42,046 nt of DNA from Slackia heliotrinireducens. Lineage in GTDB: Bacteria; Actinomycetota; Aquicultoria; DYIV01. Shown here piece by piece: positions 19,013 to 40,296 of the stretch. Where the stretch lies: assembly GCA_020723435.1 (NCBI GenBank), contig DYIV01000006.1, forward strand, positions 2,329 through 44,374, read 5' to 3'. The notes below the pieces were generated by a model. The model did not search any database, was not told where the DNA came from, and saw only the letters and a program-made list of their open reading frames with translations. The translations under genes and the position numbers were made by a program. The stretch's first letter is position 1; the number at the start of each line of letters is the position of its first letter.

Positions 19013-19034
19013 GTCTCCTCGCTTTGTGCCAATG

Positions 19035-20168: not shown

Positions 20169-20174
20169 GAGGCA

Positions 20175-21305
20175 TCACATCTTTTTCTTGAACATCAGCG
20201 CCGACGCGACGATGGTCAGGGTCGAGTAGATGACGAGCGCGAGGATGTTGGGCCACAGAATCGAGGGGCCCGTTCCCTTCAGAAAGACTCCGCGCAGGAT
20301 GGACAGGTAGTAACGCGCCGGCACGAGATAGGTCGCCCATTGCAGTACGACCGGCATGTTGCGAATGGGGAATACGAATCCCGACAGCATGAAGCCGGGA
20401 AGAAACGACAGGAATGTGGCCATCTGATTGGCCGTCTGCAGCGAGCTCGACATCGTGGAGATGATGAGACCCAGGCCCAGTGAGCCGAAGATGAACAGGG
20501 CGGATGCTATGGCCATCACGATGATGCTTCCCCGGAAGGGCACGCCAAAGAGGAATATGCCGACCAGGCTGACGAGGATGATGTCGATGATGGCTATTCC
20601 CAGGTAGGGGCCGATCTTGCCGATCATCAGCTCATAGCGTTTGACCGGAGAGGCGATGAGCTGCTCGATGGTCCCGTACTCCTTCTCTCTGACGACGGCC
20701 ATCGCCGTCTGCACGATGGCGATGTTCATCATGATGATCGCGATCAGTCCGGGCAGCAGGAAGTTGACCGACTTCATGTCGGGGTTGTACCAGACACGCA
20801 GGCGAGGCTCGATCGGTTGGATGCCCTCAGCGGCGACAAGGCCGCGCCGCTCGAACGCCTCCGCCACGACCTTGCCCGACCAGAACTGCGCGATCGCCGC
20901 GGAGTAGCCGGCCGCGGTCTGGGCGGTATTCGGATCCGAGCCGTCGATGAGGACCTGCACCGGAGCCTTGCCCCCCTTGGCGATCTTCTTGGCGAAGCCG
21001 GCCGGGACTCTGATGATCACCTTGTCGGCGCCCTCCGTGAGCACATCGTCGATCTGTTTCTCGGTCGAGAGGGTTCTGTCGATCGCGAAGTATCCGGATG
21101 CCGAGAAGGACTGGACCAGCTGGCGGCTCGTCGTCGTCTTGTCCTGGTCGAGGACGGCGGTGGGGATGTTGGTGATGTCGTAGTTCAGAGCGTAGGAGAA
21201 TAGGATGAGCTGGATGAGCGGCATGCCGAAGACGCTCATGATGATTCTGGGATCGCGAAAGATGTGGACGAACTCCTTGCGGCCTATGGCGAAGATGCGG
21301 CTCAC
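20175..21305 (-). CDS. ABC-2 type transporter permease (YbhS/YbhR-like)
   Basis: GRKEFVHIFRDPRIIMSVFGMPLIQLILFSYALNYDITNIPTAVLDQD; VVREKEYGTIEQLIASPVKRYELMIGK; GTG start. Confidence 0.9.
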   Translation of the reverse strand: MSRIFAIGRKEFVHIFRDPRIIMSVFGMPLIQLILFSYALNYDITNIPTAVLDQDKTTTSRQLVQSFSASGYFAIDRTLSTEKQIDDVLTEGADKVIIRVPAGFAKKIAKGGKAPVQVLIDGSDPNTAQTAAGYSAAIAQFWSGKVVAEAFERRGLVAAEGIQPIEPRLRVWYNPDMKSVNFLLPGLIAIIMMNIAIVQTAMAVVREKEYGTIEQLIASPVKRYELMIGKIGPYLGIAIIDIILVSLVGIFLFGVPFRGSIIVMAIASALFIFGSLGLGLIISTMSSSLQTANQMATFLSFLPGFMLSGFVFPIRNMPVVLQWATYLVPARYYLSILRGVFLKGTGPSILWPNILALVIYSTLTIVASALMFKKKM

Positions 21306-21342
21306 TGCAGCTCCCGCCCCGTCTTCAGAGTGAAGCTGCGGC

Positions 21343-22281
21343 TCACTGTGGCTCCCGCCTCGTCTTCAACAGGTCGATGAACGCGCTCTCCATCGACACC
21401 CTGGCCGGGTTGATCGCCTCGATGCGAATGCCGTTCTTCTTCAGGAAGTCCTCAAGCTCGGGGAGGGCCTTGGCGGGACTGTCCACGCGCACCTGCAGCA
21501 GCTCGCCGTACATGTCGACACTGCTGACCAGGTCGTTCTTCTGAAGCATCGCCATCGCTGGACGCAACGGGTCGGCCTTGATCTCGACGAGGCCACCCTC
21601 CAGCCGCGCCTTGATTCTGGAAGGCGTGTCCTCGAGGATGATCTTGCCGTTCTCCATGAACGCGACAGAGCTGCAGCGCTCCGCCTCATCCATGTAGGGC
21701 GTTGCGATGAACATCGTGACCCCGCGCGCGTGGAGGTCGGAGAGGATTCGCCAGAAGTCGCGGCGTGAGACGGGATCGACGCCGGTCGTCGGTTCGTCGA
21801 GGAACAGGATGTCAGGCTCGTGGATGAGCGTGCACGCCAGCGCGAGCTTCTGCTTCATGCCGCCGGAGAGGTTCTCCGCGCGCAACTGTGTGAACTTCTG
21901 CAGCCGGCTGAAGGCGAGCAGCTGCTCGGTGCGCTCTCGCTTCTTTGCCGCGGTCACGCCGAAGAGGTCGGCGAAGAAGTTGAGGTTCTCCATGACCGTC
22001 AAGTCGCGGTAGAGGGTGAACTCCTCCGGCATGTAGCCGACGCGAGGCTTGATCGCCTCAGACTGGGTGACGATGCTGTAGCCGGCGACATGGGCATCCC
22101 CGCTCGTGGGCTCGAGGATGGTGGCGAGCATCCTGATCGTCGTGCTCTTGCCGGCGCCGTCTGGTCCGATCAGGCCGTAGATCTTGCCCTTGGGCACCCT
22201 GAGCGACAGCGAGTTGACCGCGACGGTGTCGCCAAAGACCTTGCGCAGGTCGGTTGCCTCTATCGCGTAGTCGTTGGTCAT
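21343..22281 (-). CDS. ABC-2 type exporter ATP-binding protein
   Basis: GPDGAGKSTTIRML, LSGGMKQKLALACTLIHEPDILFLDEPTTGVDP. Confidence 0.92.
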   Translation of the reverse strand: MTNDYAIEATDLRKVFGDTVAVNSLSLRVPKGKIYGLIGPDGAGKSTTIRMLATILEPTSGDAHVAGYSIVTQSEAIKPRVGYMPEEFTLYRDLTVMENLNFFADLFGVTAAKKRERTEQLLAFSRLQKFTQLRAENLSGGMKQKLALACTLIHEPDILFLDEPTTGVDPVSRRDFWRILSDLHARGVTMFIATPYMDEAERCSSVAFMENGKIILEDTPSRIKARLEGGLVEIKADPLRPAMAMLQKNDLVSSVDMYGELLQVRVDSPAKALPELEDFLKKNGIRIEAINPARVSMESAFIDLLKTRREPQ

Positions 22282-22325
22282 GCCGCTCGCTCGCGGCAGG
22301 TTGAGAACGACATCCTCCCTCTCTT

Positions 22326-23096
22326 CTACTCGAAGGCCACGTCAGCGGGCATGCCGGGCTTGAGCTTCTGCCCCAGATTGACCAGCGTCACGGTCGTACG
22401 AAACACCTGCTTGACGCGCTGCTCTTTCGTCTCGATGTTGCCCGGCGTGAACTCGGCCTGGGACGCGATGCGCGTGACCTTGCCGTCGAAGGCCTCACCG
22501 GGATACGAATCGACGCCGACCTTCGCCGCCTGGCCGATCTTGACCAGCCCCAGCTGGGCCTCTGGAACGAAGACGTCGACGTGCACCGTGCGCAGGTCGC
22601 CTACAACTGCCACGATCGTGCCGGGCGTGGCGTTCTCGCCCGCGCTCACCGGCACCGACAAGACGATGCCCGCCTGCGGCGACTTGATGGCCGCGTAGGA
22701 TAGCTGAACCGCCGCCATCTGGTAGGCGACGTTTGCCTGGCGAAGCTGTGCCTTGGCCGCCGCGATGTCTGCGTTCGTTCCGTCGTCTCGAGTCGCCTTC
22801 AGGGCGGCGCGGGCGGCGGAGATGCCGGCCTTGGCCTGTTTCACCTGGTCGGCGAGGAGCGCGTAGTCGAGACGGACCAGGGTCTGACCCTTCTTGACCC
22901 GGTCTCCCTCGCTGACGGCGACCGAGGTGATGCGTGCCGCGGTCTGGGCGCTCACCTCGATCTCGGTCGCCTCAATCGTCCCCGAAGCCGCGAGCCCGCC
23001 GTTCTGGGCCTCCTGTTGGGACAAGACGTAGTACGCGATGCCGCCGACCGCTGCGACGACCACGACGAGTATGATGAATCGAAACGCCTTCTTCAT
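22326..23096 (-). CDS. HlyD/YbhG-family periplasmic adaptor-like protein
   Basis: N-terminal TM, biotinyl-lipoyl-like halves (VSEGDRVKKGQTLVRLD; AIKSPQAGIVLSVPVSAGENATPG). Confidence 0.85.
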   Translation of the reverse strand: MKKAFRFIILVVVVAAVGGIAYYVLSQQEAQNGGLAASGTIEATEIEVSAQTAARITSVAVSEGDRVKKGQTLVRLDYALLADQVKQAKAGISAARAALKATRDDGTNADIAAAKAQLRQANVAYQMAAVQLSYAAIKSPQAGIVLSVPVSAGENATPGTIVAVVGDLRTVHVDVFVPEAQLGLVKIGQAAKVGVDSYPGEAFDGKVTRIASQAEFTPGNIETKEQRVKQVFRTTVTLVNLGQKLKPGMPADVAFE

Positions 23097-23104
23097 GGGG
23101 CCTC

Positions 23105-24475
23105 CTAGCGTATGCTGATCCGTGCATCCGCGGGCATCCCGTCCTTCAGGATGCCGTCGGGATTGTCGACGAGAAGCGTCACCGCTTGGACATTGGAGAA
23201 GTACATCCGCTCCGTGGCCGTGTTGGACGGAGCGAACTCGACGGTCGATCCGATCAGATCGACACGTCCCGGAAGGGATCGATTCGAAAACGTGTCGATG
23301 CTGACCTCGGCCTCCTGGCCGAGTCGAACCATCCTCACTTCGTCCGGCGGCAGGTACAGAAACAGTTTCGCGCTGCCGGCTCGGGAGATCGTCACCAAGG
23401 GCTGGTTTGAGAAGGCAAGCTCGCCCGCCTGCGCCGTGACGTCAACGACCACTCCGGCGCCCGGCGCGCGAACGAGAGCCTTCGCAAGCTCGGTCGCGCT
23501 GGCCGCGACGGCGGTGCGGGCCAGGCTCACGTTGACCCGCGCGAGCTTGTGAGCGGCTGCCAGGCGTCTGCGTCCCTTGTCAATCTGTTCCTGCGCGTCG
23601 TCGAGCTTGGCCTCGGCCGCCTTGAGCTTGGCCGCGGCCGTTTCAAGGGCCGCGAATCCCGCCTCGAGCTGCGCCCGTCCCCTCGCCAGCTCTGCCTCGG
23701 CGGCCGCCAGCTGCTCTTTGAGCTCGGCCGGGTTCGGGAGTTTCGGGATCTTCGGCGCCGGAGCCGGGACAGGCGTGCCGCTTGTCGGCGGCGAGGGCAT
23801 CGGAGGAATCGGCGGCAGCGGCGGAGTCTTCATCTTCGACAGCTGGGCCTTCTGGGCAGCGAGCTCTCGCTCGCCTTCGGATATCTGCGCCAGGCCTTCG
23901 TTGAGCTGGGCGCGTCCTTCATCGAGTTGGTCCTTGCCCTCGGCTATCTGCTCCCGGGCCTGGTCGAGTTCCCGCTGCTTCTGCTCCAGCTCTGCGATTC
24001 TCTTCTCCACGATGAGTACGTTGGCTCTGGCTTGGGAAAGGACGGCCCTATTCCGCTTCAGCGCCAGTCGCAGGAGCCGATCGTCGATCCTGGCCAGCGG
24101 CGCACCCGCCTTGACCGTCTCACCTTCCGTGACGAAGAGCCGTGTGACGATTCCGGTCGGCGTGATCGGATTCGTCGCGATCTGTGAAGGAATGCGGGTC
24201 GAGCCCGAGCCTGAGGCCAGTGCGGTCGCCTCGACTCGCGCATCGACGCGAGCCGTCACCGCGAAACCGTCGAGGAGATTCCGTTGCTTCGCGAAGCTGT
24301 TCATTGGGACGACGACGGGCGGGGCCGTGATGCGTGGCGTAGTCACCGTCCACTGCTCGGTGTCGACGACGCCCGACGCGTAGACGGTCCCGAGCGGCGC
24401 CGGGCTCATCGCCGACGTGACGGTCGCCTGGAACAAGAACAAGACAGTGAGGCCGATAAGGAGGTCCCTTCTCAC
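23105..24475 (-). CDS. Second HlyD-family adaptor with long coiled-coil hairpin
   Basis: Heptad-rich arms separated by a Pro-rich turn PPLPPIPPMPSPPTSGTPVPAPAPKIP; lipoyl-like halves; GTG 24475 more plausible than ORF start 24523, which overlaps tetR. Confidence 0.8.
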   Translation of the reverse strand: MRRDLLIGLTVLFLFQATVTSAMSPAPLGTVYASGVVDTEQWTVTTPRITAPPVVVPMNSFAKQRNLLDGFAVTARVDARVEATALASGSGSTRIPSQIATNPITPTGIVTRLFVTEGETVKAGAPLARIDDRLLRLALKRNRAVLSQARANVLIVEKRIAELEQKQRELDQAREQIAEGKDQLDEGRAQLNEGLAQISEGERELAAQKAQLSKMKTPPLPPIPPMPSPPTSGTPVPAPAPKIPKLPNPAELKEQLAAAEAELARGRAQLEAGFAALETAAAKLKAAEAKLDDAQEQIDKGRRRLAAAHKLARVNVSLARTAVAASATELAKALVRAPGAGVVVDVTAQAGELAFSNQPLVTISRAGSAKLFLYLPPDEVRMVRLGQEAEVSIDTFSNRSLPGRVDLIGSTVEFAPSNTATERMYFSNVQAVTLLVDNPDGILKDGMPADARISIR

Positions 24476-24488
24476 CCAGGCTCCCTTC

Positions 24489-25112
24489 TCATCTCGGCTC
24501 ACTCCGCACAAGGAGGCCGCCAAGCGCCAGATCGGCGATCTGGTCGCGCACGTCGTCGATTCTGTAGGGCTCCTGGAAGCGTATGGTCAGGATGTGGAAG
24601 TGAAGGATCATGCCGAGGACGGCGCGCACGGCGACGTCCGGGTCGACGTCGCGGCGAAACTCGCCGGCCGCCACGCCTTCTCTGACAATCCCCTCCAGCA
24701 CGTCCAGGTACTCGGATCGAAACCTCTTCAGCCGTCTCATCGTCTTGGGTGGGGGCTTACCCCTCTCGGGCATTATGAACTCGACGAGCTCCCGGCCGGC
24801 CGCGAGCCACCCCATCAGGGCGCTGACAAGCGAGCGCAATCGATCGGCGGCCGGCAGGTCGGCCGAGGCCAGCTCACCGGCCTGCTCGATGAAGCGGTCG
24901 AGGTGAGCGTCGACGACGAGCAGGCCCAGATCCTCCTTGCTCGGCGTGTGGTAGTAGAGCGTCGCCTTGCCGATCCGCGCCGCGTCGGCGATGTCTTGCA
25001 TCGTCACGCTCGAGTAGCCTTTCGTTGCGAAAAGGTCGGACGCGGCTGCGACAATCTGTCGCTCGGTCTGGCGACTGCGCCTCTGGCAAAGCTTCTTCTT
25101 CAGGTCCCGCAC
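24489..25112 (-). CDS. TetR/AcrR family transcriptional regulator
   Basis: QIVAAASDLFATKGYSSVTMQDIADAARIGKATLYYHTPSKEDL; start GTG 25112 or 25136 (see findings). Confidence 0.9.
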   Translation of the reverse strand: MRDLKKKLCQRRSRQTERQIVAAASDLFATKGYSSVTMQDIADAARIGKATLYYHTPSKEDLGLLVVDAHLDRFIEQAGELASADLPAADRLRSLVSALMGWLAAGRELVEFIMPERGKPPPKTMRRLKRFRSEYLDVLEGIVREGVAAGEFRRDVDPDVAVRAVLGMILHFHILTIRFQEPYRIDDVRDQIADLALGGLLVRSEPR

Positions 25113-27293: not shown

Positions 27294-28025
27294 CTATCCC
27301 GAATCGGTCATCTCCGACGGCTTGACCTGCAATCGCTTGAGCAGGCTGATGCAGGCGACCGCCAGTCCGATCGCCGCCAGCATCCGGTAGAACTGGATCG
27401 GCAGGCCCAAGATCACGGTTGGTGCGGGGTATCCGCTCGTTATCGCTCCCGCGAGCACACCGTACGTGGCCAGGCAGATCGCCGCTGTGAGAGTATCTCG
27501 CGCGCACTCGCGCATGTTGAGCGCCTGGCACCTGCGCGACAGCATGTAGAAGCCGTACCCACCAAGCAGCGCTCCCGGAAGCCCGATGAGGAGCCGGATC
27601 GCGCGCTCCACCGCCGATATCTCCAGAGCCGACGCGCCTTCCGCGTACAAAGAGAGAAGCCCGGCCGCCAGCCCAATCAGTCCGAAGACTCCAAGCGTGA
27701 TCACCGATCGATAGATTCTCGGATCCCGAATCGAGATCGCCAGGCCGAACTGGAGCAGAAGGATGAAGGATGCTGCCAGCAGGGTCAGCCGGATCGCGCC
27801 CAGGGCGCTGCCCGGGGTGGCTTCCACGCCGGGCAGTCGAAGGCCGACGTCGACTACGTCTGACAGACCGTGTACAAAAGCGAACATGCTCAGCAGACGC
27901 AGGTGTGCGGCAACGCCCAGCCGCGCGGTGCGTTCACCGTAGAGCCAGAGGGACACGCCCGTTACGAGCCACGCTCCTCCATACACGGCGTAGACAACAA
28001 GCAAGCCGACCTCGCGGAAACTCAC
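27294..28025 (-). CDS. Seven-TM-like integral membrane protein, putative stand-alone sensor
   Basis: About seven hydrophobic helices, no recognisable output domain; GTG start overlaps the stop of the upstream PadR gene (GTGA). Confidence 0.65.
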   Translation of the reverse strand: MSFREVGLLVVYAVYGGAWLVTGVSLWLYGERTARLGVAAHLRLLSMFAFVHGLSDVVDVGLRLPGVEATPGSALGAIRLTLLAASFILLLQFGLAISIRDPRIYRSVITLGVFGLIGLAAGLLSLYAEGASALEISAVERAIRLLIGLPGALLGGYGFYMLSRRCQALNMRECARDTLTAAICLATYGVLAGAITSGYPAPTVILGLPIQFYRMLAAIGLAVACISLLKRLQVKPSEMTDSG

Positions 28026-29506
28026 GGTAGCGCTCCTTTCCCTGCCGCCTTTTCAGGCAGGATGTCGAGTTCCGTCAAAAGCATACCATCACTGTCCGAT
28101 ATACGCTGGGCGACGCTGTCGAGTATCTCCGAGACGAACGCCTCTCCAAGACGAGACTTGGCCGATCGGACGACGAGAGAAACATAGTTCTTGGCCTGAT
28201 TCTCGACAGTCTCCTGACTGCCGGCGAATCGACTGGCCACGCTGCGACGGTCGCTGGGATGCCAGAAGTCGGGAAGCGTGGCTTCTGCGGCGGCGAATGA
28301 AACATCTTCGTAGATCAGCGTCACGGTCTTCTCTCCGGCGATAACCTCCACGGATTCCGCAAAAAGGCGCAGACAGTTGGCGATAGCGGTAACAAGGCGC
28401 CGCTTCTTCTCATCCGACCTGACGATCCAGCCGATCGCCCACAGAGGGTAGAGCGTCAGCAGCAGAGAGTGCGAATCGGAGCCCAGCTGCCGCAGCAGAT
28501 CCCGCAACGTGCGGACCCCGTCTATCTCGGCGAGGACTCGCCGCTCGTCTTCGGTCAGATCTATGCCGACGGTCTCGTACTCGTAGCCGGGACGCGTGTC
28601 GAGCACCGCTCCGACCTCCATCGGAATCTGGCTGCGGGCGGCCTCCGGCGGTACGAGGCGGCATCCGCGGAGTATGACCGCCATGTGACCGTCGACCTTT
28701 TCGACCTGATCGTCGGGGACCTCAACGTGCGAGAAGGCGAAGCGGCGATCGGTGGCGGCAAAGGTCTCGCGCAGCGCGACGTCGGTCTTGACACCGGGGA
28801 CCGAAACGAGCCCGGTGAGCGTGCCTTCCTCGAACTGGAATCCAACCTTGCGGTCGTCGGCGAACCCCCACAGTACGCCGGAGCGACGGGCGGCGACGAC
28901 GTTGCGCAGCGTCTCATAGAGCGGGCATTCGTATTGCGGATCGGGCGCACCCGCCGGGACGGCGGTCAACGTGCCCGCCGACGATGCTTGGAGTAGGGCT
29001 GTCACGTGACGTATCTCCGCGTCCAAGAGCGCTCGACGGCGATCGAGCACGAGCACGAGCGACGCATCTCCGGAAACCCGGGCGTCTTCGAGCGTTCTCT
29101 CGAGCAACGATAGCGCCTGCTGCAGCGACGTCAGCCTGGCCAGAATGCGGGAGGTGGCGACGCTCGGCTCGAGCCGGTCGCTGTAGTACAAGGCGATATC
29201 GAAGCTCTGCATGGACTCCGGCAGCTCGCCCAAGGCCACCTCCACCTCAGTGAAGAATTCCCGGCGTCCCTCATCGGTGATCGAGTAGACCGTTCTCTCC
29301 GGCTTTCCTCCGTGCCGCTCGGAGTGTCGGGAGACGAAACCGGCACGGGCGAGACGGTTCAGCGCGTAGTAGACGGACGCCCGTCCCATCTTCACCCAGA
29401 CGCTCATGTATGGACCGCCGAGTTGATCCACCAGTTCGTATCCGTGCATCGGTTCTCGAATGAGCATCCCGAGCAGCATGAGATCGGTCTTTGAAATGCC
29501 CTTCAC
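28022..29506 (-). CDS. PadR-type regulator fused to DUF4388/PATAN-like region
   Basis: MKGISKTDLMLLGMLIREPMHGYELVDQLG...VYYALNRLARAGFVSRHSERHGGKPERTVYSITDEGRREF; then YETLRNVVAARRSGVLWGFADDRKVGFQFEEGTLTGLV and LTEDERRVLAEIDGVRTLRDLLRQLGSDSHSLLLTLYPLWAIGWI. Confidence 0.75.
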   Translation of the reverse strand: MKGISKTDLMLLGMLIREPMHGYELVDQLGGPYMSVWVKMGRASVYYALNRLARAGFVSRHSERHGGKPERTVYSITDEGRREFFTEVEVALGELPESMQSFDIALYYSDRLEPSVATSRILARLTSLQQALSLLERTLEDARVSGDASLVLVLDRRRALLDAEIRHVTALLQASSAGTLTAVPAGAPDPQYECPLYETLRNVVAARRSGVLWGFADDRKVGFQFEEGTLTGLVSVPGVKTDVALRETFAATDRRFAFSHVEVPDDQVEKVDGHMAVILRGCRLVPPEAARSQIPMEVGAVLDTRPGYEYETVGIDLTEDERRVLAEIDGVRTLRDLLRQLGSDSHSLLLTLYPLWAIGWIVRSDEKKRRLVTAIANCLRLFAESVEVIAGEKTVTLIYEDVSFAAAEATLPDFWHPSDRRSVASRFAGSQETVENQAKNYVSLVVRSAKSRLGEAFVSEILDSVAQRISDSDGMLLTELDILPEKAAGKGALP

Positions 29507-29812: not shown

Positions 29813-30102
29813 GAGATAGACCTCAGAGGCGTGGTGGCCCGGATGTTGCTCTTAGGTACGGAGGAAGCAATCGGCATGGGAGTCTCATCGTGAAAGCAGG
29901 AACAAGGCTGAACGGGCTCCCCGCAAACGACACAGTCCGGATTGTGGGCTCTTCACTGCCTCAGGACGCCCCCCTTTTAAGGAAATACCTGACATGAAAC
30001 GTCAAGATACCTCCCCCCGGCAAGGTCACATCGCCGCTGCCCACTTGTGCAGGGGCGTGGATTGACACGTTGGCAACCGAGAAGAAAGGAGGTGCATACA
30101 TA

Positions 30103-31692
30103 ATGAGGTTGCTCAAAGAAAGTAGGAGTGCAATGGTGCTGTTTGTGGCCGCTGTTCTCGTTTTCGTTCTGGGCCTGGCGACGACGGCACTTGCCGTAGC
30201 GCCACAGACGTACAACGAGGCCGATCCGGCTTTCGGCCGCTCAGCATGGACCTATAAGGACCTCCAGGATACGGATGCGAAGTACGAAGGTAGCTACGCC
30301 GTCTTCGACGACACGTCTACCGCGATGTACAACAATCCGCACGGTGGTTACGACACCGGCACGAACCAGTGCAAGGTGTGCCATGCGGTCCACCGCGCCA
30401 ACGGCGCGTACTATCTCTTGCGTGCCGATTCGCAGGACGACGCATGCTCCTACTGCCACATCGGAGGTTCCGCTCACTCGGACAAGGTTGTCTACGACGC
30501 GAACCCGGATGGCATCTATACGACGAACGGCCATACGATAGGTGCTCAGACGCAGATCCCGGATTCGTCGGAGAGCCAGGAGGCCACCGCGGTCACCCTG
30601 TCGACGACGGACGCCAACGGCGATCCGCTTGAAGAGACCATCCACGTTCGTAGTTACGAGACGGCCAAGAACGAGATGTACAGGTTCGGTCGTCACCACA
30701 GCCAGAGCCCGGTATCTACGGGACGCAGTGGCTATGCCAAGATCGGACCGCTGGCTCTTCGTTGCATGAACTGCCACCAGCCGCACAACGCGACGGAGTT
30801 GGTCTGGAAGCCGCGTGACTTCACGCCGTTCACCAGCGCCAACTACAGCACGGCCACCGACGGCGCCTTCAGGACATCGAGCTACAAGCTCCTGCGGCGT
30901 TATCCGTCCGCGTCCACCTACGGCTCGATCAACAGCTACGGCTACTGGGATGACGTGCAGGCCATCAAGGTCATCGAAGACAGCGCGACTGCCGGGCTGA
31001 ACTTCAGCCAGGAGATGTCCGCCGAGTCGACCTACACGGAGAACGGCGTTACGCGGCGTCAGCCGCTGTGGATTGCCCAGGATATCCACAAGCCCGATCC
31101 GGATTCGGAGAGTGGCATCTATCGCTACCCGAACAAGGTCAACAACATGGCGTTGTCATGGTGGTGTGCTGACTGTCACAACCTGAACGTTGGTGGCTGG
31201 GAGCCGCTGACCGACCCCGAGCTCGGCTTCAAGGCTCACACCGAGCGGACCCACCCGGCACCGTACTACGGCGCCTACACGGGTCCCGGCCAGTGCTACA
31301 GCTGCCACCGCAACGACCTGTCGCCGCAGATGGGCCTGACGGCTGCCACCAACCCGGATCGTTCCTCGGGTTACGCCGCGGGTCACACTGTCGGCGGTGT
31401 TGTCAGCGCGACGGCTATCACGGGATCGTCCCGGAACGGGTGCACCCAGTGCCACTACGGAACCGGCGACTACTATCGTGAGCGCGTGAATGGCGGCGGC
31501 GTACCTGTCGTCGAGTCCGACTTCCCGCACTCCGGCGGTACTGAGGATATCAAGATGCTGGGTAACTACAGCGCGTCGGTCGCAAGCGCAACCGCGAGCT
31601 ACGCGCCGACCTACAGCCAGACCACCGTCACCGAGAATAATCTCGATGCAGTGTGCCTGCGCTGTCATCCCGGCGTCGGTATCCACATCTAG
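30103..31692 (+). CDS. Secreted 7-heme c-type cytochrome (cytA)
   Basis: SD aaaggaggt, signal peptide, 7 CxxCH: CKVCH, CSYCH, CMNCH, CADCH, CYSCH, CTQCH, CLRCH; C-terminus CLRCHPGVGIHI. Confidence 0.92.
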   Translation: MRLLKESRSAMVLFVAAVLVFVLGLATTALAVAPQTYNEADPAFGRSAWTYKDLQDTDAKYEGSYAVFDDTSTAMYNNPHGGYDTGTNQCKVCHAVHRANGAYYLLRADSQDDACSYCHIGGSAHSDKVVYDANPDGIYTTNGHTIGAQTQIPDSSESQEATAVTLSTTDANGDPLEETIHVRSYETAKNEMYRFGRHHSQSPVSTGRSGYAKIGPLALRCMNCHQPHNATELVWKPRDFTPFTSANYSTATDGAFRTSSYKLLRRYPSASTYGSINSYGYWDDVQAIKVIEDSATAGLNFSQEMSAESTYTENGVTRRQPLWIAQDIHKPDPDSESGIYRYPNKVNNMALSWWCADCHNLNVGGWEPLTDPELGFKAHTERTHPAPYYGAYTGPGQCYSCHRNDLSPQMGLTAATNPDRSSGYAAGHTVGGVVSATAITGSSRNGCTQCHYGTGDYYRERVNGGGVPVVESDFPHSGGTEDIKMLGNYSASVASATASYAPTYSQTTVTENNLDAVCLRCHPGVGIHI

Positions 31693-31946: not shown

Positions 31947-32666
31947 GTGGCCAGCACGGGGCAATCGCCTGAGTTCGTCGATCATGCTCGGGCCGTGACT
32001 CACGTCACAACCGGCTACGCTGAAGCGGAGTCGCGCGCCGAGCCCCATAAGGCACGGCTGCTGTTTCGAGCTCTTCTGGTCACCGCGCTTCTCGCCCTAA
32101 GCCTCGCCGTCGTCGTCAATTGGCTCGCCGTTCCCTGGGACTGGGGTTCCGGACAATTACGCGTCTCCGTTCCGGCGCCCGACGGACGCGTGCCGCCTCC
32201 GGGCATCAAGACGGCCGTCAACGAGCTACCGGGCGCGATTCCCGGGTTCGAGAACATCACGAGGCAGGCAGTTCCCGGCCAGGGTGGCCGTGCCGTCGAG
32301 GCGCTGTATGTGACTCTGAACATGAACCTCGAGATCCAAGTGCCGATAGCCGTCTACGTACGGGCCGAGGGGTTCCCCTCCGGCGCCCTCGCCCGGCGGC
32401 GGGCGACTGAGATCGCGGGACCCTTCCCGGTTGGCGCCTCAAGCGTTCGGGTCGGGAAGACGGCCGTCGGCAGGGCGGGTTACAGCTCCGATCGAGGCGC
32501 CTACACCATTACGTGGACCCGAGGTCAACACGTCTTCTTCGTCAAGAGCACGTTTCGCGACAAGGCCCCGGCACAAAAGCGAGATTTCCTCAGAGTTCAG
32601 GCTCGTCCGGTGGCAGACGCCATCGAGGCGTATCAGCGCTCCGGCAAACGGAGCATCAAGCTCTAG
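31947..32666 (+). CDS. Hypothetical single-pass membrane protein
   Basis: TM LLFRALLVTALLALSLAVVVNWLAV followed by exported domain; GTG start; first gene of the downstream cytochrome operon. Confidence 0.6.
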   Translation: MASTGQSPEFVDHARAVTHVTTGYAEAESRAEPHKARLLFRALLVTALLALSLAVVVNWLAVPWDWGSGQLRVSVPAPDGRVPPPGIKTAVNELPGAIPGFENITRQAVPGQGGRAVEALYVTLNMNLEIQVPIAVYVRAEGFPSGALARRRATEIAGPFPVGASSVRVGKTAVGRAGYSSDRGAYTITWTRGQHVFFVKSTFRDKAPAQKRDFLRVQARPVADAIEAYQRSGKRSIKL

Positions 32667-32690: not shown

Positions 32691-33716
32691 GTGCCGCAAA
32701 CCGGCGACAAGAATCGCCTGCGCAGCAGAATGGATCGCTACAGGCTCGACACGGAGCGGGTTTGGTACCTTGCCCTGTCTGTAGTCTGCTTTGTGCTGAT
32801 CGTGGCCGGCGCCGTATCCGCAGCCGCGGTGAGCCCGCGTTTCTGCGCGGCGTGTCATGACCGCGAGACGGACGCCCTGACAAAGTCGGCCCACAAGACC
32901 ATCGCGTGCGATCGATGTCACACGGCGCCGAGCCTGGCGGGGGTGGTCGACAGCAGGCTCGCGGTGGTCGGCATGATACCGGCCCAGCTCGTCGCCGGCA
33001 GCGGCCCCGCGCCGACGGTCATCGACAACGACCGTTGCGTGGCGTGTCACAAAGAGGTGCTCACGGCCACGACCACGTCGAAGGGGCTGCGCATGAACCA
33101 CCGCGCGCTGTATGAGAAGAAGTGGTCATGCACGCGCTGTCACCCGCGAACGGCGCATCCGTCCTCACGAGCTCCCGTTCTCGGCTACTCGATGGACGTC
33201 TGCATGGAGTGCCATACGCCTACGACGGCGGATCTGACCGCCTGCGACATGTGCCACGTCGGCAAGTACCCCTCGGTTCGGCAGCAGGCGGGCGCGACGA
33301 CACCGTGGGGCATCACGCACGGCCCCAACTGGCGCAAGACGCACGGCATGGGCAACTTGAACACCTGCGCCGCCTGCCACCAGGATGGGTACTGCGCCAC
33401 ATGCCACAAGATAGACATGCCGCACCCGGCGAACTTCCCGTCCGAGCACGGGAAGGTCGTCCTCAGCCGGGAGAGCGGAACGGAGGACTGCTTCGTTTGT
33501 CACAAGCGAACGACGTGTGACAATTGCCACGGCATCGAAATGCCGCATCCTACCGGATTCATAAAGACGCACTCCAAGACCGTTGGACGCATGGGCCAGG
33601 CGGTTTGCGAGCGATGTCACGCCGAATCATCCTGCCTGGACTGCCATGCGACCCACATCCATCCCGGGCTGCTGCCCGAAGTCATAAAGAAGCTACGAGC
33701 GAGGCCGGCCACATGA
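32691..33716 (+). CDS. Membrane-anchored 12-heme c-type cytochrome
   Basis: N-terminal TM; 12 CxxCH counted (CAACH, CDRCH, CVACH, CTRCH, CMECH, CDMCH, CAACH, CATCH, CFVCH, CDNCH, CERCH, CLDCH). Confidence 0.92.
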   Translation: MPQTGDKNRLRSRMDRYRLDTERVWYLALSVVCFVLIVAGAVSAAAVSPRFCAACHDRETDALTKSAHKTIACDRCHTAPSLAGVVDSRLAVVGMIPAQLVAGSGPAPTVIDNDRCVACHKEVLTATTTSKGLRMNHRALYEKKWSCTRCHPRTAHPSSRAPVLGYSMDVCMECHTPTTADLTACDMCHVGKYPSVRQQAGATTPWGITHGPNWRKTHGMGNLNTCAACHQDGYCATCHKIDMPHPANFPSEHGKVVLSRESGTEDCFVCHKRTTCDNCHGIEMPHPTGFIKTHSKTVGRMGQAVCERCHAESSCLDCHATHIHPGLLPEVIKKLRARPAT

Positions 33717-34933
33717 GGCTGCAAGACTACATAAACTCGGCTCGCACCTGGCTCACCGGCGGCGATCCGGCACGCAATCTCATCACGATTCTGGTGATCG
33801 TACTGGTGGTCACCGCAGTCATCGCCGGCGTCGTCTACTTCGTTCACGTCACGACGCCGAAAGGACGGATCGAAGCGCTGTTGCGCAGCAGGGCGCAGGA
33901 GCAGGCCCGCGGTCCGGCATGGCTCGTGAGGCTACTGGCGATACTGCTCTTCATCCTGGCCTTCGCGGGCATCGGCTATTACATGGACAGACCGGAAGGA
34001 TGCAACCAGTGCCATGGGAATGCCTGGTCGAAATCGCTGTCCAGATCGCCTCACAAGGATGTCTCCTGCATGGACTGTCACGGCTCGCGGGGGATAACCG
34101 GGCCGGCGCGCGATCTGGTGGCGTACGCTCGGTGGGTAACCGTCTACACGGCCGCCCGCGAGGTCGTCAAGCCTCGAGGCGTGGGCATCTACGAGGGCGC
34201 GTGCCTCGATTGCCACCCTGAGGTCCGCACCTCGACTCGCGTCCGAAACGGAATCCGCGTGCGACACAAGGACTTCCTGGTCAGCGGCGTTACCTGCGCC
34301 GATTGCCACAACATGACGTCCCATCCCGACGAGGTTGCCGAACCGACCAAGCCAAGCATGAGCGGGTGTCTGATCTGTCACAACGGCGATCGCGCGTCGG
34401 CCGAGTGCGAGACGTGCCACGTTCGGGATCCCGCGCTGCAGTCGGTGCCTCGCGGGTTCGCCAAGGTCCATATGAGCTCCGAGCAGCAGAAAGGGGCCTG
34501 CTTCAAATGCCACAACCCGGCGCCCTGCACGGCCTGCCACGGACTGCGCATGCCGCATCCCCCTAACTGGGTGGCAAAGGGCGGCGTCGATCAGAGAAAC
34601 AGGCACGCCCGGGAAGCCTTCGTCGACCGGCAGGTCTGCTGGCGCTGCCACTACAAGGGAACGGACGTGTTTTCAGCCAACCCGGACGCGTGCAAGCCCT
34701 GCCACGAACCCGGCATGGACACAAAGATGCACGGAGGCTCGGTGTGGATACAGGAGCACGGGCCGGAGGCAACGGGTAAGAGGACAGGAGTCTTCGCGGC
34801 CTGCTTCGACTGCCATTCAGCGACGCTGTGCGATCAGTGTCATCCGGCGTCGTACCGGAAGCTGTACAAGCCGAGAACGGGTCCGGACCAGTACCAGCGG
34901 GCCGTGCCGCTCGACCCGAGTCTGGTCCCGTAG
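33713..34933 (+). CDS. Membrane 12-heme c-type cytochrome, two N-terminal TMs
   Basis: ATGA overlap with previous stop; 12 CxxCH counted (CNQCH, CMDCH, CLDCH, CADCH, CLICH, CETCH, CFKCH, CTACH, CWRCH, CKPCH, CFDCH, CDQCH). Confidence 0.92.
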   Translation: MRLQDYINSARTWLTGGDPARNLITILVIVLVVTAVIAGVVYFVHVTTPKGRIEALLRSRAQEQARGPAWLVRLLAILLFILAFAGIGYYMDRPEGCNQCHGNAWSKSLSRSPHKDVSCMDCHGSRGITGPARDLVAYARWVTVYTAAREVVKPRGVGIYEGACLDCHPEVRTSTRVRNGIRVRHKDFLVSGVTCADCHNMTSHPDEVAEPTKPSMSGCLICHNGDRASAECETCHVRDPALQSVPRGFAKVHMSSEQQKGACFKCHNPAPCTACHGLRMPHPPNWVAKGGVDQRNRHAREAFVDRQVCWRCHYKGTDVFSANPDACKPCHEPGMDTKMHGGSVWIQEHGPEATGKRTGVFAACFDCHSATLCDQCHPASYRKLYKPRTGPDQYQRAVPLDPSLVP

Positions 34934-34954: not shown

Positions 34955-35356
34955 ATGCGCAAGGTCATTACAGCACTGATAGTTGTCGCCCTGCTGGCGG
35001 CGGTCACCATCGTGGCGCTGTTGTTCAGCTCTCGGGGGCCAACGTCGACGCAAGTGATCAAGGACGCCAAGACGATACCGAAGAGCGCCATGGCGTTCGT
35101 CCGCAATCCATACAAAGACGACTACGGGATGAGCCGCGTATCGGGTTACGTGCAGAACCGGTCCGGCACGAAGATCGTGAACGCGCGCCTGGACATTCAG
35201 CTATCCGATTCGGCCGGCAACAAGAAGGAGCTCATCAAGTATCAGGTCAAGGACATACGTCCGTACTCCAGAAAGAGCTTCGACGCCAACGCGGGGCCCC
35301 TCGGCGGGGCTCGACGCGCCGACGTGAAGATAGTTGAGATCGAGGTGGCCAAGTGA
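34955..35356 (+). CDS. Membrane-anchored FxLYD/DUF3426-like beta-domain protein
   Basis: N-terminal TM; SRVSGYVQNRSGTKIVNARLDIQLSDSAGN...DIRPYSRKSFDA pattern. Confidence 0.6.
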   Translation: MRKVITALIVVALLAAVTIVALLFSSRGPTSTQVIKDAKTIPKSAMAFVRNPYKDDYGMSRVSGYVQNRSGTKIVNARLDIQLSDSAGNKKELIKYQVKDIRPYSRKSFDANAGPLGGARRADVKIVEIEVAK

Positions 35357-35946
35357 TGGTCCGTACTCGCCAACGTCCAGGCAGCGCAGACCGAAGCGGC
35401 CACACGTGGCTTCTCGTGCGGCGCCTACTGGCGGCGGCCGTGGTGATCGTGCTCGCGGCGGGTTGGGCCGCGTTGCCCGGCTGCGCCGGGGACTCCCGTC
35501 AGGTGACCATCGTCAAGCCGGGGCAGGAGAAGCGCGCGGGCTTGACTCCGCTGGAGCGAGGCCGGATTCGAGGAGAGGTGCTGCAGGTGGTCAGACCCGC
35601 CATCAAGGCGTGGCGGGCGGGCGATATCACGGCGATGAAGCGGTACTTCTCCGCCGAGCTGGTGACCTACAACGCCAAGGTCAAAGCGGACTACGCGCGT
35701 GAGGGCAAGGTCCGGGTGCGCGCTCACACCAATGTCGGCATGGACGTTGTCGAGTTGACGCCCGACGGCCGCGAGGCCTCGGTTCAGTACACCTTCAGGA
35801 ATCGGTCCTACTTCGCCGCGAAGAGCACGAGGCGCGCTCTGACGAAGCCCACCGACGAGGATGGCGAGATAGACATGATCCTGAAGCGCACCAACGAGGG
35901 TTGGACCATAACGCGCATGTTCAGTGGTAGGGATGAGCTGCTGTGA
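35353..35946 (+). CDS. Putative lipoprotein with NTF2/SnoaL-like domain
   Basis: Lipobox-like AALPGC; IKAWRAGDITAMKRYFSAELVTYNAKVKADYAREGKVRVRAHTNVG; GTG 35353 or ATG 35356 start. Confidence 0.55.
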   Translation: MMVRTRQRPGSADRSGHTWLLVRRLLAAAVVIVLAAGWAALPGCAGDSRQVTIVKPGQEKRAGLTPLERGRIRGEVLQVVRPAIKAWRAGDITAMKRYFSAELVTYNAKVKADYAREGKVRVRAHTNVGMDVVELTPDGREASVQYTFRNRSYFAAKSTRRALTKPTDEDGEIDMILKRTNEGWTITRMFSGRDELL

Positions 35947-36049
35947 TCGTAGGTAACTTGGCATTTGTATTGCTCCATTCAGTGTGTTGCGGGACAACGC
36001 GGCACCGATCCGATTTGGAAGTCTCAAGAGCCCAGGGGGTTGTCCGTTG

Positions 36050-36766
36050 ATGCTGGAAAAAGCCGTTCCATATCTGAAGGTCGCCATCGTTCTTCTCGTC
36101 GTGGCGTTGCTCGTGCTGGCAGCCGGTCTCGTTCGCTACGTGCTGCTGGGAGGTTCGGGGGCCGGCGCGCCCAGATCCGAGCTGGAGCGGGCGGTCTTCG
36201 CCGCTGAGGAGGCGGTTCGGGCCAATCCACAGGACGCCGGGGCGCGGGTGAAGCTCGCTGCGGCCTATCTGGAGCAGAATAGCGTCAGCTCGGCTATCGA
36301 GCAGGCTGAGTTCGCCATCAGGCTCGCGCCGAAGGATCCTAGCGGCTACTACGTGCTGGGCCTGGCTCAGTCCGAGTCCGGCGATCTGAAGGCCGCCGCC
36401 GGCAACCTGACGAAGTCCGCGAGGCTCAAGGGCCAGCTCGGCGACTTCTACGCGGACGTATACGCCGCGCTTGCCACCGTTCAGGAGAAGGATGGCGATC
36501 TGAAGGGCGCCATCAAGACGATGGGCAAGGCCCTCGACCAGGCGCCGGAGAACGCGGTCTATCTCACGACTCGCGGCCGCATGCACGAAGACGCGCGCGA
36601 GTGGGTGTGGGCGCTTGATGACTACCTTTCAGCGCTTCAGTACGTGCCGGACTACGAGCCTGCCGGCGATGCCTACAACCGCCTGGCTCGCGAGCATCCG
36701 GAGGCGCTCGAGAAGCTCAAAGAGATGGAGAAGGCAAGCCAGAAAGCCCAGACGAAGAGCAAGTAG
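36050..36766 (+). CDS. Membrane-anchored TPR protein
   Basis: N-terminal TM; TPR-like repeats (AAYLEQNSVSSAIEQAEFAIRLAPKDPSGYYVLGLAQSESGD...). Confidence 0.75.
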   Translation: MLEKAVPYLKVAIVLLVVALLVLAAGLVRYVLLGGSGAGAPRSELERAVFAAEEAVRANPQDAGARVKLAAAYLEQNSVSSAIEQAEFAIRLAPKDPSGYYVLGLAQSESGDLKAAAGNLTKSARLKGQLGDFYADVYAALATVQEKDGDLKGAIKTMGKALDQAPENAVYLTTRGRMHEDAREWVWALDDYLSALQYVPDYEPAGDAYNRLAREHPEALEKLKEMEKASQKAQTKSK

Positions 36767-36780
36767 CTTAGGAGGTCACC

Positions 36781-38235
36781 TTGTCACCAAGCAGCGAAGC
36801 AACCAGACGCACGGCGGTCAGATATCTGGCTGTCGCCATCGCCCTTCTCCTTTTAGTTCTGATTCTGGGCATCTTCTACTATCTGCTCACGCGCCCGCCC
36901 GAGCTCAAGGAGAGCGGGGCCAAGGATCGCAACTTCCTCTTTTCGATATACGGTTTCCAAGGCGACTTGTTACGTAGACCGACCGGGGTCGGCCTGGACG
37001 CAAAGGGCAACATCTACGTTGCCGACACCGGCAAGAAGCGCATCGTCATCTTCGATCGGGAGGGCAACTACGTCGCGACCTACGGCGAATTCGGCAAGAA
37101 GCCGCTGGAGCTGTGGGATCCGATAGACGTCGCCGTCGCGGCGGACGGACGAAGCTATGTGCTCGACAAGACTCAGAAGAAGATTGTCGTCTACGACTCG
37201 GCTCGCCGGCCGATTCACGTCATCACCTTTCCTGAGGCGCCGCTGTCGGTCGAAGTCTCCGGCGACAAGCTGTTCGTTACGACGGTCAGCGGCGTGCTCA
37301 TCGGCGACCTGAGAGGCAATCTGCTGACCGGCTACATCGCCCGGGGCAAGAAGACCGGGCAGTTCGACCTTCCCGGCGCGCTGGCGGTGGGCAAGGACGG
37401 AACCCTCTACGTCGCCGACTCTCTCAACTATAGGGTCCAGGCGATCGGGACGAACGGGAAGCCCAAGTGGGCCTATGGCAAGCCGTTGCCGCCCAAAACG
37501 GCGGTGATGTATCGAGGTGGCGACCGCAAGTTCGGCCTGCCGGCCAGCATCGCGCAGGACGACAACGGAAACCTCTACGTCGTCGACGGCCTCAACAGCG
37601 AAATCGTCGTTCTCGATTCGGATGGCGAGTTCATCGAGAAGATGGGCACGCAAGGGCACGGCGACGGCGAATTCTACTATCCGGAAGGTATCACCTATGG
37701 CGACGGTCGCCTCGTCGTGGCCGACAAGTTCAACGACCGTGTGGAGGTCTTCTCGGTACCGATCCTCGGCGGTCCGCGCTACACGGCGTATCTGCCGCTC
37801 GCACTGCTGTTGCTCCTGCTGCCGCTGCTGCTCTTCCTGCTGCGGCGCCGGGTGCGCTACGTGGCGACGTCGGCCTTTGTCGGCATGCTTGCCGCCGACG
37901 AGAACGCGGAACTCGTCGCCGACGCACTGAAGAAGGTCAACGTCTCGCCGGCGCTGGCGGAGCGCGCGAGCGGGCTGGAGAACGTCGAGCTGTCCTGGCT
38001 CAGCCGAGACATACCCTCCGATCGCGTGAGCGATCTTGTTGAGCAGTATCGCCTCGAGCAGGAAGACGCCGAGGCTCTGGCCGTGGCGCTCGGGCTGGGC
38101 GGCAGGAAGGTCCTGCTGACCGAGACCGAGGACGTCAGGCAGGCCGCCGTCGACCTGGAGGTTCCGACGCTGAGTTACGAGGAACTGATCGACACCCTGC
38201 GGTCGCCCGAAACCGAAGGCGAGGCGGCGGGATGA
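36781..38235 (+). CDS. NHL-repeat beta-propeller membrane protein with C-terminal PIN/DUF3368-like cytoplasmic domain
   Basis: NHL repeats (PTGVGLDAKGNIYVADTGKKRIVIFD, LPGALAVGKDGTLYVADSLNYRVQAIG, PEGITYGDGRLVVADKFNDRVEVF), TM1 near N-terminus, TM2 YLPLALLLLLLPLLLFLLRRRVRY, then VATSAFVGMLA...LEQEDAEALAVALGLGGRKVLLTETEDVRQAAVDLEVP. TTG start with SD taggaggt. Confidence 0.8.
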   Translation: MSPSSEATRRTAVRYLAVAIALLLLVLILGIFYYLLTRPPELKESGAKDRNFLFSIYGFQGDLLRRPTGVGLDAKGNIYVADTGKKRIVIFDREGNYVATYGEFGKKPLELWDPIDVAVAADGRSYVLDKTQKKIVVYDSARRPIHVITFPEAPLSVEVSGDKLFVTTVSGVLIGDLRGNLLTGYIARGKKTGQFDLPGALAVGKDGTLYVADSLNYRVQAIGTNGKPKWAYGKPLPPKTAVMYRGGDRKFGLPASIAQDDNGNLYVVDGLNSEIVVLDSDGEFIEKMGTQGHGDGEFYYPEGITYGDGRLVVADKFNDRVEVFSVPILGGPRYTAYLPLALLLLLLPLLLFLLRRRVRYVATSAFVGMLAADENAELVADALKKVNVSPALAERASGLENVELSWLSRDIPSDRVSDLVEQYRLEQEDAEALAVALGLGGRKVLLTETEDVRQAAVDLEVPTLSYEELIDTLRSPETEGEAAG

Positions 38236-38777
38236 GAAAGACGCCGAAGACTCTCGCCGTGGCGATAGTCGTCTCGACCCTGGGCATCCTGGCGCTGGTC
38301 GCCGGATGCTCGGGGTCGCGCGTTCCCGATCCGGAAGGGATCCCCGAGCAGACGCGCAGCGCGTCGGTCTTCTTCTCAACCGGCCGCTCGCTGTTCGAGG
38401 AGAGACGGCTCGTGGACGCGAAGGATGTGTACGGCCAGACGCTCGCGGAGCTTCTGGAGGCGCACCCGGTCACCAATCCCGATGTCGCCATCGTCCAGCC
38501 TGCGGCCAAGGTTCGCTCGGTCAAGCTGGACCGCGGGGTGCTCACCATCGACTGGGACAGAGACGTTCTGAAGTTCGAGGCGGAGCCGAAGGAGAAAGTG
38601 TTGGCGCTCGCCGCGATCCTCAGGACATTCGGCCAGTTTCCAGAGGTGAAGAAGGTTCGCTTCACAGTGGAAGGTAAGACAGACGGCAAACTCGATGGTT
38701 CGGACGTACAAGTCTTCTGGGGTCGAGTCAGCCTGCGCGGTCAGCCCTGGGACGTGCTGCGGCCCTCGACAAAGTAG
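38232..38777 (+). CDS. GerMN-domain lipoprotein
   Basis: Lipobox ALVAGC; VRSVKLDRGVLTIDWDRDVLKF...ILRTFGQFPEVKKVRFTVEGK. Confidence 0.75.
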   Translation: MRKTPKTLAVAIVVSTLGILALVAGCSGSRVPDPEGIPEQTRSASVFFSTGRSLFEERRLVDAKDVYGQTLAELLEAHPVTNPDVAIVQPAAKVRSVKLDRGVLTIDWDRDVLKFEAEPKEKVLALAAILRTFGQFPEVKKVRFTVEGKTDGKLDGSDVQVFWGRVSLRGQPWDVLRPSTK

Positions 38778-38790
38778 CCGTGGCCGTTCA

Positions 38791-40296
38791 GTGAGGACGA
38801 GGACCCCTCGGCTGCGGCGGCCGACGTGTTGTGCCGCGCTCGGTCTGATCTTCGCGGTCGTCATCTCATGGTGCGCGGCGGCTGTCGCCTCGGCGGCACC
38901 GCCTTCCGTCGTCGACGAGTCCGCTCCGGCCTACGGCCGGTCGGCATGGACCTACAAGGACATCCGCGACATCTCGTTCAAGTACGAAGGCGGCTACGCG
39001 CGCTTCGACGACACGTCGACGGCCACGTACGAGACCGATCCCCACGGCGGCTATGACACGGCGACGAACCAGTGCAAGGTCTGCCACGCTGTTCATCGCG
39101 CAGGCGGCTCCTACTCGTTGATGCGCGCCGACTCCGAAAGCGACGCCTGCGTCTACTGCCACGTCGGCGGCTCGGCGCACTCCGCCAAGACCGTCTACGA
39201 CGCCAACCCCGGTGGGATGAACACCTCGGTGGGGCACGCGATCGGCTCCACCGCTGTCGTCCCAGACTCCTCGGTCGAAGAGACCCTCGACGTGCTGGAA
39301 GTTCCGAGCGTGGACGCCTCGGGCAATCCTGCGACCGAGACGGTCTACGCCAGACGAGCCGATCCTTCCCAGAACCGCATATTCCGCCTCAGCCGGCGCC
39401 ATTCGCAGGGTCCTCCCGGCGATCTCTCCAGCGGCTACCTTCGAGTGGGGCCGACGGCGCTAACGTGCCTGTCCTGTCACCAGCCGCACAACTCTCCCGA
39501 CATCTCCTGGCGGCCGATGTCCTTCCCGGGCGACGCCACTCGGACGGCGTCCGGCTACAAGCTGCTTCGAGCCAGTCCCTCCGGCTCGATATGGGGTCCC
39601 GACGACATGCCCTACGGCGGCGGGGGTCCCTCTACGGTCTCCTACACGACTGACGGGATGAAGGGCCTGAAGGCCTATGCCGACTTCGCGACCACCGGAT
39701 ATGTGAACGCGCCCAACGTCATCCGCTCGCCGGAGACGACGCTCACGCCCGAGACCCACGGTCCCGGCAAGACGATCTGGACATCTCCCGACTGGGGCCA
39801 CAGCGAGACCTCGACGCCGGGCCCGGCCAGGGACCCCGCGGCCGTCAATCAGTACGCGCTGTCGGTGTGGTGTGCCGACTGCCACAATCTCGCCGTCGGG
39901 TACTGGCGCGAGGGAGAGATCGCCGATTTGGCCGAGCCGGCGCACGAGACATCCAGGACGCACCCCGCGCCGTTCGTGGGTGCCAACAATGGTCCGGGGC
40001 AGTGCTACAGTTGCCACCGGGCCGGGCTCAGTCCCGAGCCTGCCGACGCCGCGTATGATTCGGGCAGCGTCCAGTGCGAGAAGTGCCACTACGGAACGGG
40101 GTCCTACGCCGTCGACCCCGAGCGGACCTCTGCGTCAGGCGCCGACTTTCCACATTCGGCCGAGACGAGCGGGACGAAGATGCTCGGCGCTTGGGCGATT
40201 GGCGCTTCCGGCTCAGTCGAGCCCACGCAGATCACCCAGTCGAACCTCGATCTGGTCTGCTTGCGCTGCCACAAGCAGGGGAGCAAGACGCACTAG
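38791..40296 (+). CDS. Secreted 7-heme c-type cytochrome, paralog of 30103-31692 (cytB)
   Basis: GTG start, signal peptide; 7 CxxCH (CKVCH, CVYCH, CLSCH, CADCH, CYSCH, CEKCH, CLRCH) in the same order; strong N-terminal identity to cytA. Confidence 0.9.
   Translation: MRTRTPRLRRPTCCAALGLIFAVVISWCAAAVASAAPPSVVDESAPAYGRSAWTYKDIRDISFKYEGGYARFDDTSTATYETDPHGGYDTATNQCKVCHAVHRAGGSYSLMRADSESDACVYCHVGGSAHSAKTVYDANPGGMNTSVGHAIGSTAVVPDSSVEETLDVLEVPSVDASGNPATETVYARRADPSQNRIFRLSRRHSQGPPGDLSSGYLRVGPTALTCLSCHQPHNSPDISWRPMSFPGDATRTASGYKLLRASPSGSIWGPDDMPYGGGGPSTVSYTTDGMKGLKAYADFATTGYVNAPNVIRSPETTLTPETHGPGKTIWTSPDWGHSETSTPGPARDPAAVNQYALSVWCADCHNLAVGYWREGEIADLAEPAHETSRTHPAPFVGANNGPGQCYSCHRAGLSPEPADAAYDSGSVQCEKCHYGTGSYAVDPERTSASGADFPHSAETSGTKMLGAWAIGASGSVEPTQITQSNLDLVCLRCHKQGSKTH

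Follow-up and report, generated by a model that had tools for sequence, protein, structure and literature searches.

A putative accessory protein of a multiheme cytochrome cluster in Slackia heliotrinireducens: an NHL propeller joined across the membrane to a degenerate PIN-like domain

Introduction

Multiheme cytochrome clusters of Dethiobacter alkaliphilus encode NHL and TPR proteins, which have been proposed to assist the assembly, secretion and orientation of the cytochromes (PMC10376724). The Uet undecaheme cluster of Gallionellaceae offers a second example, in which the NHL proteins UetHI lie beside extracellular multiheme cytochromes (PMC10734462). From a different side, PIN domains are known that have been turned from cutting to binding: yeast Nmd4 carries a PIN domain without catalytic residues and works by binding (PMC11463774), and yeast Utp23 is described as a degenerate PIN protein that does not possess all catalytic residues and acts by binding (PMC5416842).

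Here we describe a locus in which both themes seem to meet. It is situated in a stretch of 42,046 nucleotides (further called the window) from an assembly of Slackia heliotrinireducens (GCA_020723435.1, contig DYIV01000006.1, positions 2,329 to 44,374), and it encodes a membrane protein with NHL repeats and a C-terminal domain (CTD) resembling PIN proteins. Like the Dethiobacter clusters, it has NHL and TPR proteins encoded inside a multiheme cytochrome cluster; unlike them, as far as the published description permits a comparison with this different organism group, it adds a PIN-like domain, which that description does not mention (PMC10376724). The Uet system differs by its outer-membrane porin UetC, and no cytosolic PIN-like domain is mentioned for it either (PMC10734462). 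Proteins with NHL or TPR repeats were thus known already from electron-transfer cytochrome clusters, and what is new is the cytosolic PIN-like, probably pseudo-nuclease, tail. An earlier note on this DNA knew of no described NHL-TM-PIN architecture, and our literature search, in which few subscription journals were covered, found no such paper.

Results

Gene and protein layout

The gene is an open frame of 484 codons with a TTG start, and its strong Shine-Dalgarno motif stands just downstream of the stop codon of the preceding TPR gene. At the 3' end its stop codon runs into the start codon of the following gene (ATG at 38232) as an ATGA overlap. Coordinates of the gene, of its parts and of the neighbours are collected in Table 1. 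The reading of an N-terminal transmembrane segment, NHL repeats, a second transmembrane segment with RRR and a distinct C-terminal sequence, made earlier from the letters, was borne out by the open frame, by Pfam and by hydropathy. Membership in the NHL-repeat group is clear: the window protein scores 87.1 bits with PF01436 at a cut-off of 20, all 28 family members match, and its DUF5128 match corresponds to a 6-bladed propeller.

Charges flanking each transmembrane segment fit, by the positive-inside rule, an arrangement with the N-terminus inside, the propeller outside and the C-terminus inside in 21 of the 28 family members. This supports a predicted topology with the NHL propeller outside and the CTD inside the cell, in agreement with the exported propeller and cytoplasmic C-terminal domain that had been claimed for it.

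Table 1. Features of the window at and around the NHL-TM-PIN gene
Feature	Coordinates	Strand	Basis or remark
Multiheme cytochrome, 7 heme-type motifs	30070..31692	+	Pfam, motif count
Multiheme cytochrome, 12 motifs, N-terminal TM	32691..33716	+	Pfam, motif count
Multiheme cytochrome, 12 motifs	33524..34933	+	Listed start overlaps previous gene; true start probably downstream near 33716
Small cluster gene, SnoaL/Tim44-like and lipoprotein-like	35353..35946	+	Weak Pfam matches
TPR protein, one N-terminal TM, directly upstream of the CDS	35984..36766	+	Pfam TPR
Shine-Dalgarno AGGAGG, 5 bases 5' of the TTG start	36770..36775	+	Read directly
CDS, 484 aa, TM1 - NHL propeller - TM2 - PIN-like domain	36781..38235	+	Open frame, 27 homologues of equal layout
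TM1, residues 18-36, N-terminus in	36832..36888	+	Hydropathy 2.93
NHL beta-propeller, about residues 52-327, outside (predicted)	36934..37761	+	Pfam NHL E 3.7e-25, DUF5128 E 3.1e-15
TM2, residues 336-354, then RRR	37786..37842	+	Hydropathy 2.70, net charge +4 on C side
Degenerate PIN-like domain (CTD), residues 358-474, inside (predicted)	37852..38202	+	hhalign to DUF3368-type PIN, probability 86-88%, E 3e-6 to 5e-6
GerMN-domain, lipoprotein-like gene	38232..38777	+	Pfam Germane E 2.4e-13; also adjoins the homologue in locus L212
Multiheme cytochrome, 7 motifs	38695..40296	+	True start probably downstream of 38777

Gene neighbourhood

In the window the gene is part of a series of plus-strand genes that code for four multiheme cytochromes and for TPR-TM, GerMN-type lipoprotein-like and SnoaL-like proteins. 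We took 20 homologous neighbourhoods for comparison, and cytochromes were counted over 21 loci. A TPR gene with a predicted transmembrane segment stands directly upstream in 10/10 homologous loci tested, and a multiheme protein, having four or more CxxCH motifs, is encoded within 3.8 kb in 18/21 loci, on the same strand in all of these save one; the remaining 3/21 loci, which have no multiheme cytochrome nearby, are near contig ends. Adjoining TPR and multiheme cytochrome genes, which we took as the mark of an accessory protein, are thus a regular feature of the family, retained in many species, and the cytochrome setting claimed for the single gene extends to its homologues. Two main settings were seen, one resembling the window and another composed of cytochrome b561, a 7-heme cytochrome and a 12- to 20-heme cytochrome, the latter found around the second copy in the window's genome.

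Several other genes of the window are worth recording. The two 7-motif cytochromes (30070-31692 and 38695-40296) flank the cluster and have alike N-terminal sequences (AFGRSAWTYKD ... NQCKVCHAVHRA); for the second of them no solved relative was detectable by sequence. A 239-residue protein with one transmembrane segment and no Pfam match is encoded inside the cytochrome cluster (31947-32666, plus strand). Upstream of the cluster, a 494-residue open reading frame on the minus strand (28022-29506) has an N-terminal PadR-type DNA-binding domain and is a possible regulator. A further multiheme cytochrome (16408-17997, minus strand; Cytochrome_C7 E 1e-13) is accompanied by an ABC-2 exporter set that includes HlyD-type proteins (18074-24523, minus strand).

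Family and distribution

Besides the window protein, 27 others from this and related genomes have the whole layout (28 in all), so it is not a product of chance. Two 340-residue open reading frames of another kind (L027, L028) were excluded from the homologue set. Full-length identity of the homologues to the window protein is 25-47%, and in the CTD, of about 115 residues in the window protein, it is 17-30%. Searching relatives with the C-terminal part matched 20 other genomes with E up to 1e-3, some of them having two or more copies, and retrieved a second copy from the window's own genome. With the CTD profile, 397 genomes of the phylum were searched and the domain was found in 25, of which 19 belong to the same class; the NHL-TM-PIN family is conserved in much of this class. 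BagA/Rv3679-like proteins of the relatives point to Actinomycetota as the probable phylum. The domain was absent from 39 genomes of other phyla with similar propellers, in a search run without a positive control, and no homologue of it occurred in the viral contigs or plasmids searched. Cytochrome_C7 matches are present in every class member searched, and co-presence of the family with cytochromes is therefore uninformative within the class.

The second NHL-TM-PIN copy of the window's genome (L003/L200; G000:C131:7458-8921, minus strand) adjoins a b561-type cytochrome b and 7-, 12- and 20-heme cytochromes. Another paralog of the same genome (L002; G000:C149:7785-8738, plus strand) has the propeller and both transmembrane segments and ends right after RRR, without the CTD. 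As this tail-less paralog demonstrates, the CTD tail is optional, a module that has been added or lost.

Homology of the C-terminal domain to PIN proteins

The C-terminal 130 residues of the window protein have no Pfam match; no significant family-wide match came from direct HMM scans of the CTD against Pfam, NCBIfam and PDB, and no Pfam PIN model recognised it, PIN_4 appearing in 2 of the 28 members with a best E of 0.09. For profile-profile comparison by hhalign, alignments of generic PIN (PF01850) and of DUF3368-type PIN (PF11848) proteins were drawn from related genomes. Against DUF3368 the CTD aligned over 96-104 columns with scores of 40-41; the best comparison (104 columns, score 41, probability 88%, E 3e-6 for one comparison) has to be set against 14.8 as the best of 100 column shuffles and 11 for a reversed profile, and with a smaller DUF3368 alignment, built out of the same sequences, the probability was 86%. 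Two alpha/beta decoys, a response regulator and Usp, scored 10 and 12 with the CTD, and decoys compared with each other and with the PIN sets scored 10-23. Similarity to VapC-type PIN is weaker (PF01850, score 20.6; of 30 shuffles the best reached 12.5). The generic PIN alignment itself scores 23 against DUF3368, so that VapC-type PIN stands further from DUF3368 than the CTD does.

Homology of the CTD to DUF3368-type PIN proteins is, from these profile comparisons, well supported but not proven. Their cores match at the profile level, and their motifs agree in order and spacing; DUF3368 proteins differ in being stand-alone and in having invariant GE and D motifs, which are lost or replaced in the CTD. 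That DUF3368 proteins adopt the PIN fold we take from established knowledge of that family, together with the profile comparison itself. The CTD profile also found seven weak matches in PDB, two of which are PIN entries (VapC6 and Nmd4), and the DUF3368 profile detected no solved structure by sequence. The PIN assignment first made from a motif in the letters is accordingly upheld as homology, with shuffles and decoys as controls; it did not obtain recognition by Pfam, and single-sequence AlphaFold gave no confident model (mean pLDDT 51).

Two other identities were considered and rejected. The best single-sequence PDB match of the CTD, Rv3679/BagA (E 0.0016), covers only about 41 residues around GGRKVLL and falls to E 0.84 with the family profile, and we treat it as chance. 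A VapBC toxin-antitoxin system is not seen here: the gene is surrounded by TPR, GerMN and cytochrome genes, with no adjoining small antitoxin gene, and, unlike VapC-type PIN proteins, the window protein is membrane-bound, has no antitoxin partner and does not keep the acidic set.

Active-site positions

PIN positions were mapped through the CTD-DUF3368 profile alignment in the 28 members. In the window protein the Asp1 position is T363; across the family it is occupied by N (8), D (6), S (5), T (3) or another residue, and in DUF3368 proteins, too, Asn is frequent there. The helix Glu position is R395, with R or K in 22/28, and is preceded by an acidic residue (E394 in the window; E or D in 25/28). 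At the place of the GEAE glutamate, which does not vary within the DUF3368 set, the window protein has D429, and only 7/28 members have E or D; the position of the DUF3368-invariant Asp94 is E448, with Glu in 24/28. Acids at all four positions are found in 0/28 in strict register and in 3/28 in a lax register, a displacement of one residue being accepted for the helix Glu; by the lax count the window CTD has 3/4. The set of about four acidic residues conserved in PIN nucleases is therefore not kept. Across the whole CTD one column only is invariant, and it is a Phe. The three homologues with acids at all four positions in lax register (L017, L018 and L032) are candidate members of an active subclade.

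The earlier description of a degenerate or altered PIN site agrees with this alignment. It is also right that the first catalytic Asp is changed; the residue is, in the profile alignment, the Thr of VATS (T363) and not the Ala that had been named, one residue off. To judge from the aligned residues, the CTD appears degenerate overall, and it is possible that a subclade is still active: in view of the three homologues mentioned, the loss of catalysis may not hold family-wide.

Discussion

We give somewhat better than an even chance to the view that the window protein is an assembly or scaffold accessory of an extracellular-electron-transfer cytochrome cluster, provided with a pseudo-nuclease docking domain. 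The conserved TPR-TM and cytochrome setting, the PIN profile homology, the lost acids and the PIN-less paralog were all counted for it. The NHL propeller and the TPR domain, both predicted outside the cell, would have multiheme cytochromes, or one another, as binding partners and may hold the cytochromes in place in secretion, heme loading or surface assembly, which extends to this locus what was proposed for the NHL and TPR proteins of Dethiobacter (PMC10376724). As most of the PIN cutting residues are lost, the CTD probably serves for docking and would connect the assembly of cytochromes with the interior of the cell. Such a pseudo-nuclease tail could, as Nmd4 does in yeast, bind a partner in the cytosol, either a protein or a nucleic acid, and would tie the site of cytochrome assembly to a cytosolic factor, for instance the translation or export machinery. 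Nmd4 and Utp23 belong to eukaryotic RNA decay and ribosome assembly, and are cited as analogies to the CTD.

It would also be logical to ask if the CTD is an altered-site nuclease which acts on RNA at the membrane, by trimming or degradation, and so tunes cytochrome production to an assembly or redox state sensed by the propeller. Acids do remain in the family (E364 in 22/28, D365 in 17/28, E/D394 in 25/28, E448 in 24/28), the members L017, L018 and L032 are acidic at all four positions in lax register, and Asn at the first position is no peculiarity of this family; but the strict set is missing from every member, the GEAE glutamate position is freely variable, the window copy has S364 and A365 and so has lost these acids, and a Phe as the sole invariant column is unlike an enzyme. 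We consider such an activity unlikely. The coupling to RNA binding or turnover once suggested for this protein found no support here, and the paralog L002 of the same genome dispenses with the CTD altogether.

That the protein is a transmembrane signalling receptor, whose propeller senses the cytochrome or redox state and whose PIN-like domain relays it to a cytosolic regulator, has in our opinion a similarly small chance. One polypeptide crosses the membrane with domains on both sides, and a TPR partner adjoins, which would suit a receptor; against it, no regulator gene regularly adjoins, as far as inspection of sizes and heme counts tells, and the same-genome paralog has no cytosolic domain.

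Rather improbable, to our mind, is that the CTD is another small alpha/beta domain unrelated to PIN, with a convergent or compositional profile match. The lack of any above-threshold family match in Pfam, NCBIfam and PDB, the 41-residue Rv3679/BagA hit and the low pLDDT speak for it, and are opposed by a DUF3368 score well above those of shuffles and decoys, by the length of the alignment with its matching motif order, and by VapC6 and Nmd4 among the weak PDB matches. We put still less trust in the boldest proposal, by which a cytochrome-bound exported propeller would control a cytosolic PIN-derived domain still acting on RNA, in the L017/L018/L032 subclade at least, and the assembly of cytochromes at the membrane would directly govern the fate of local mRNA or tRNA.

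Conclusions

Little is known of how bacteria assemble and place long chains of multiheme cytochromes on their surface, and least of all in uncultured lineages. The pair of TPR and NHL-TM-PIN proteins encoded beside such cytochromes provides two testable candidate assembly factors, and the PIN-like tail may serve as an intracellular handle by which a cytosolic partner could be pulled out. If the accessory and docking role suggested here is correct, the CTD would add a bacterial, membrane-tethered case to the PIN domains that have been reused without their catalytic residues.
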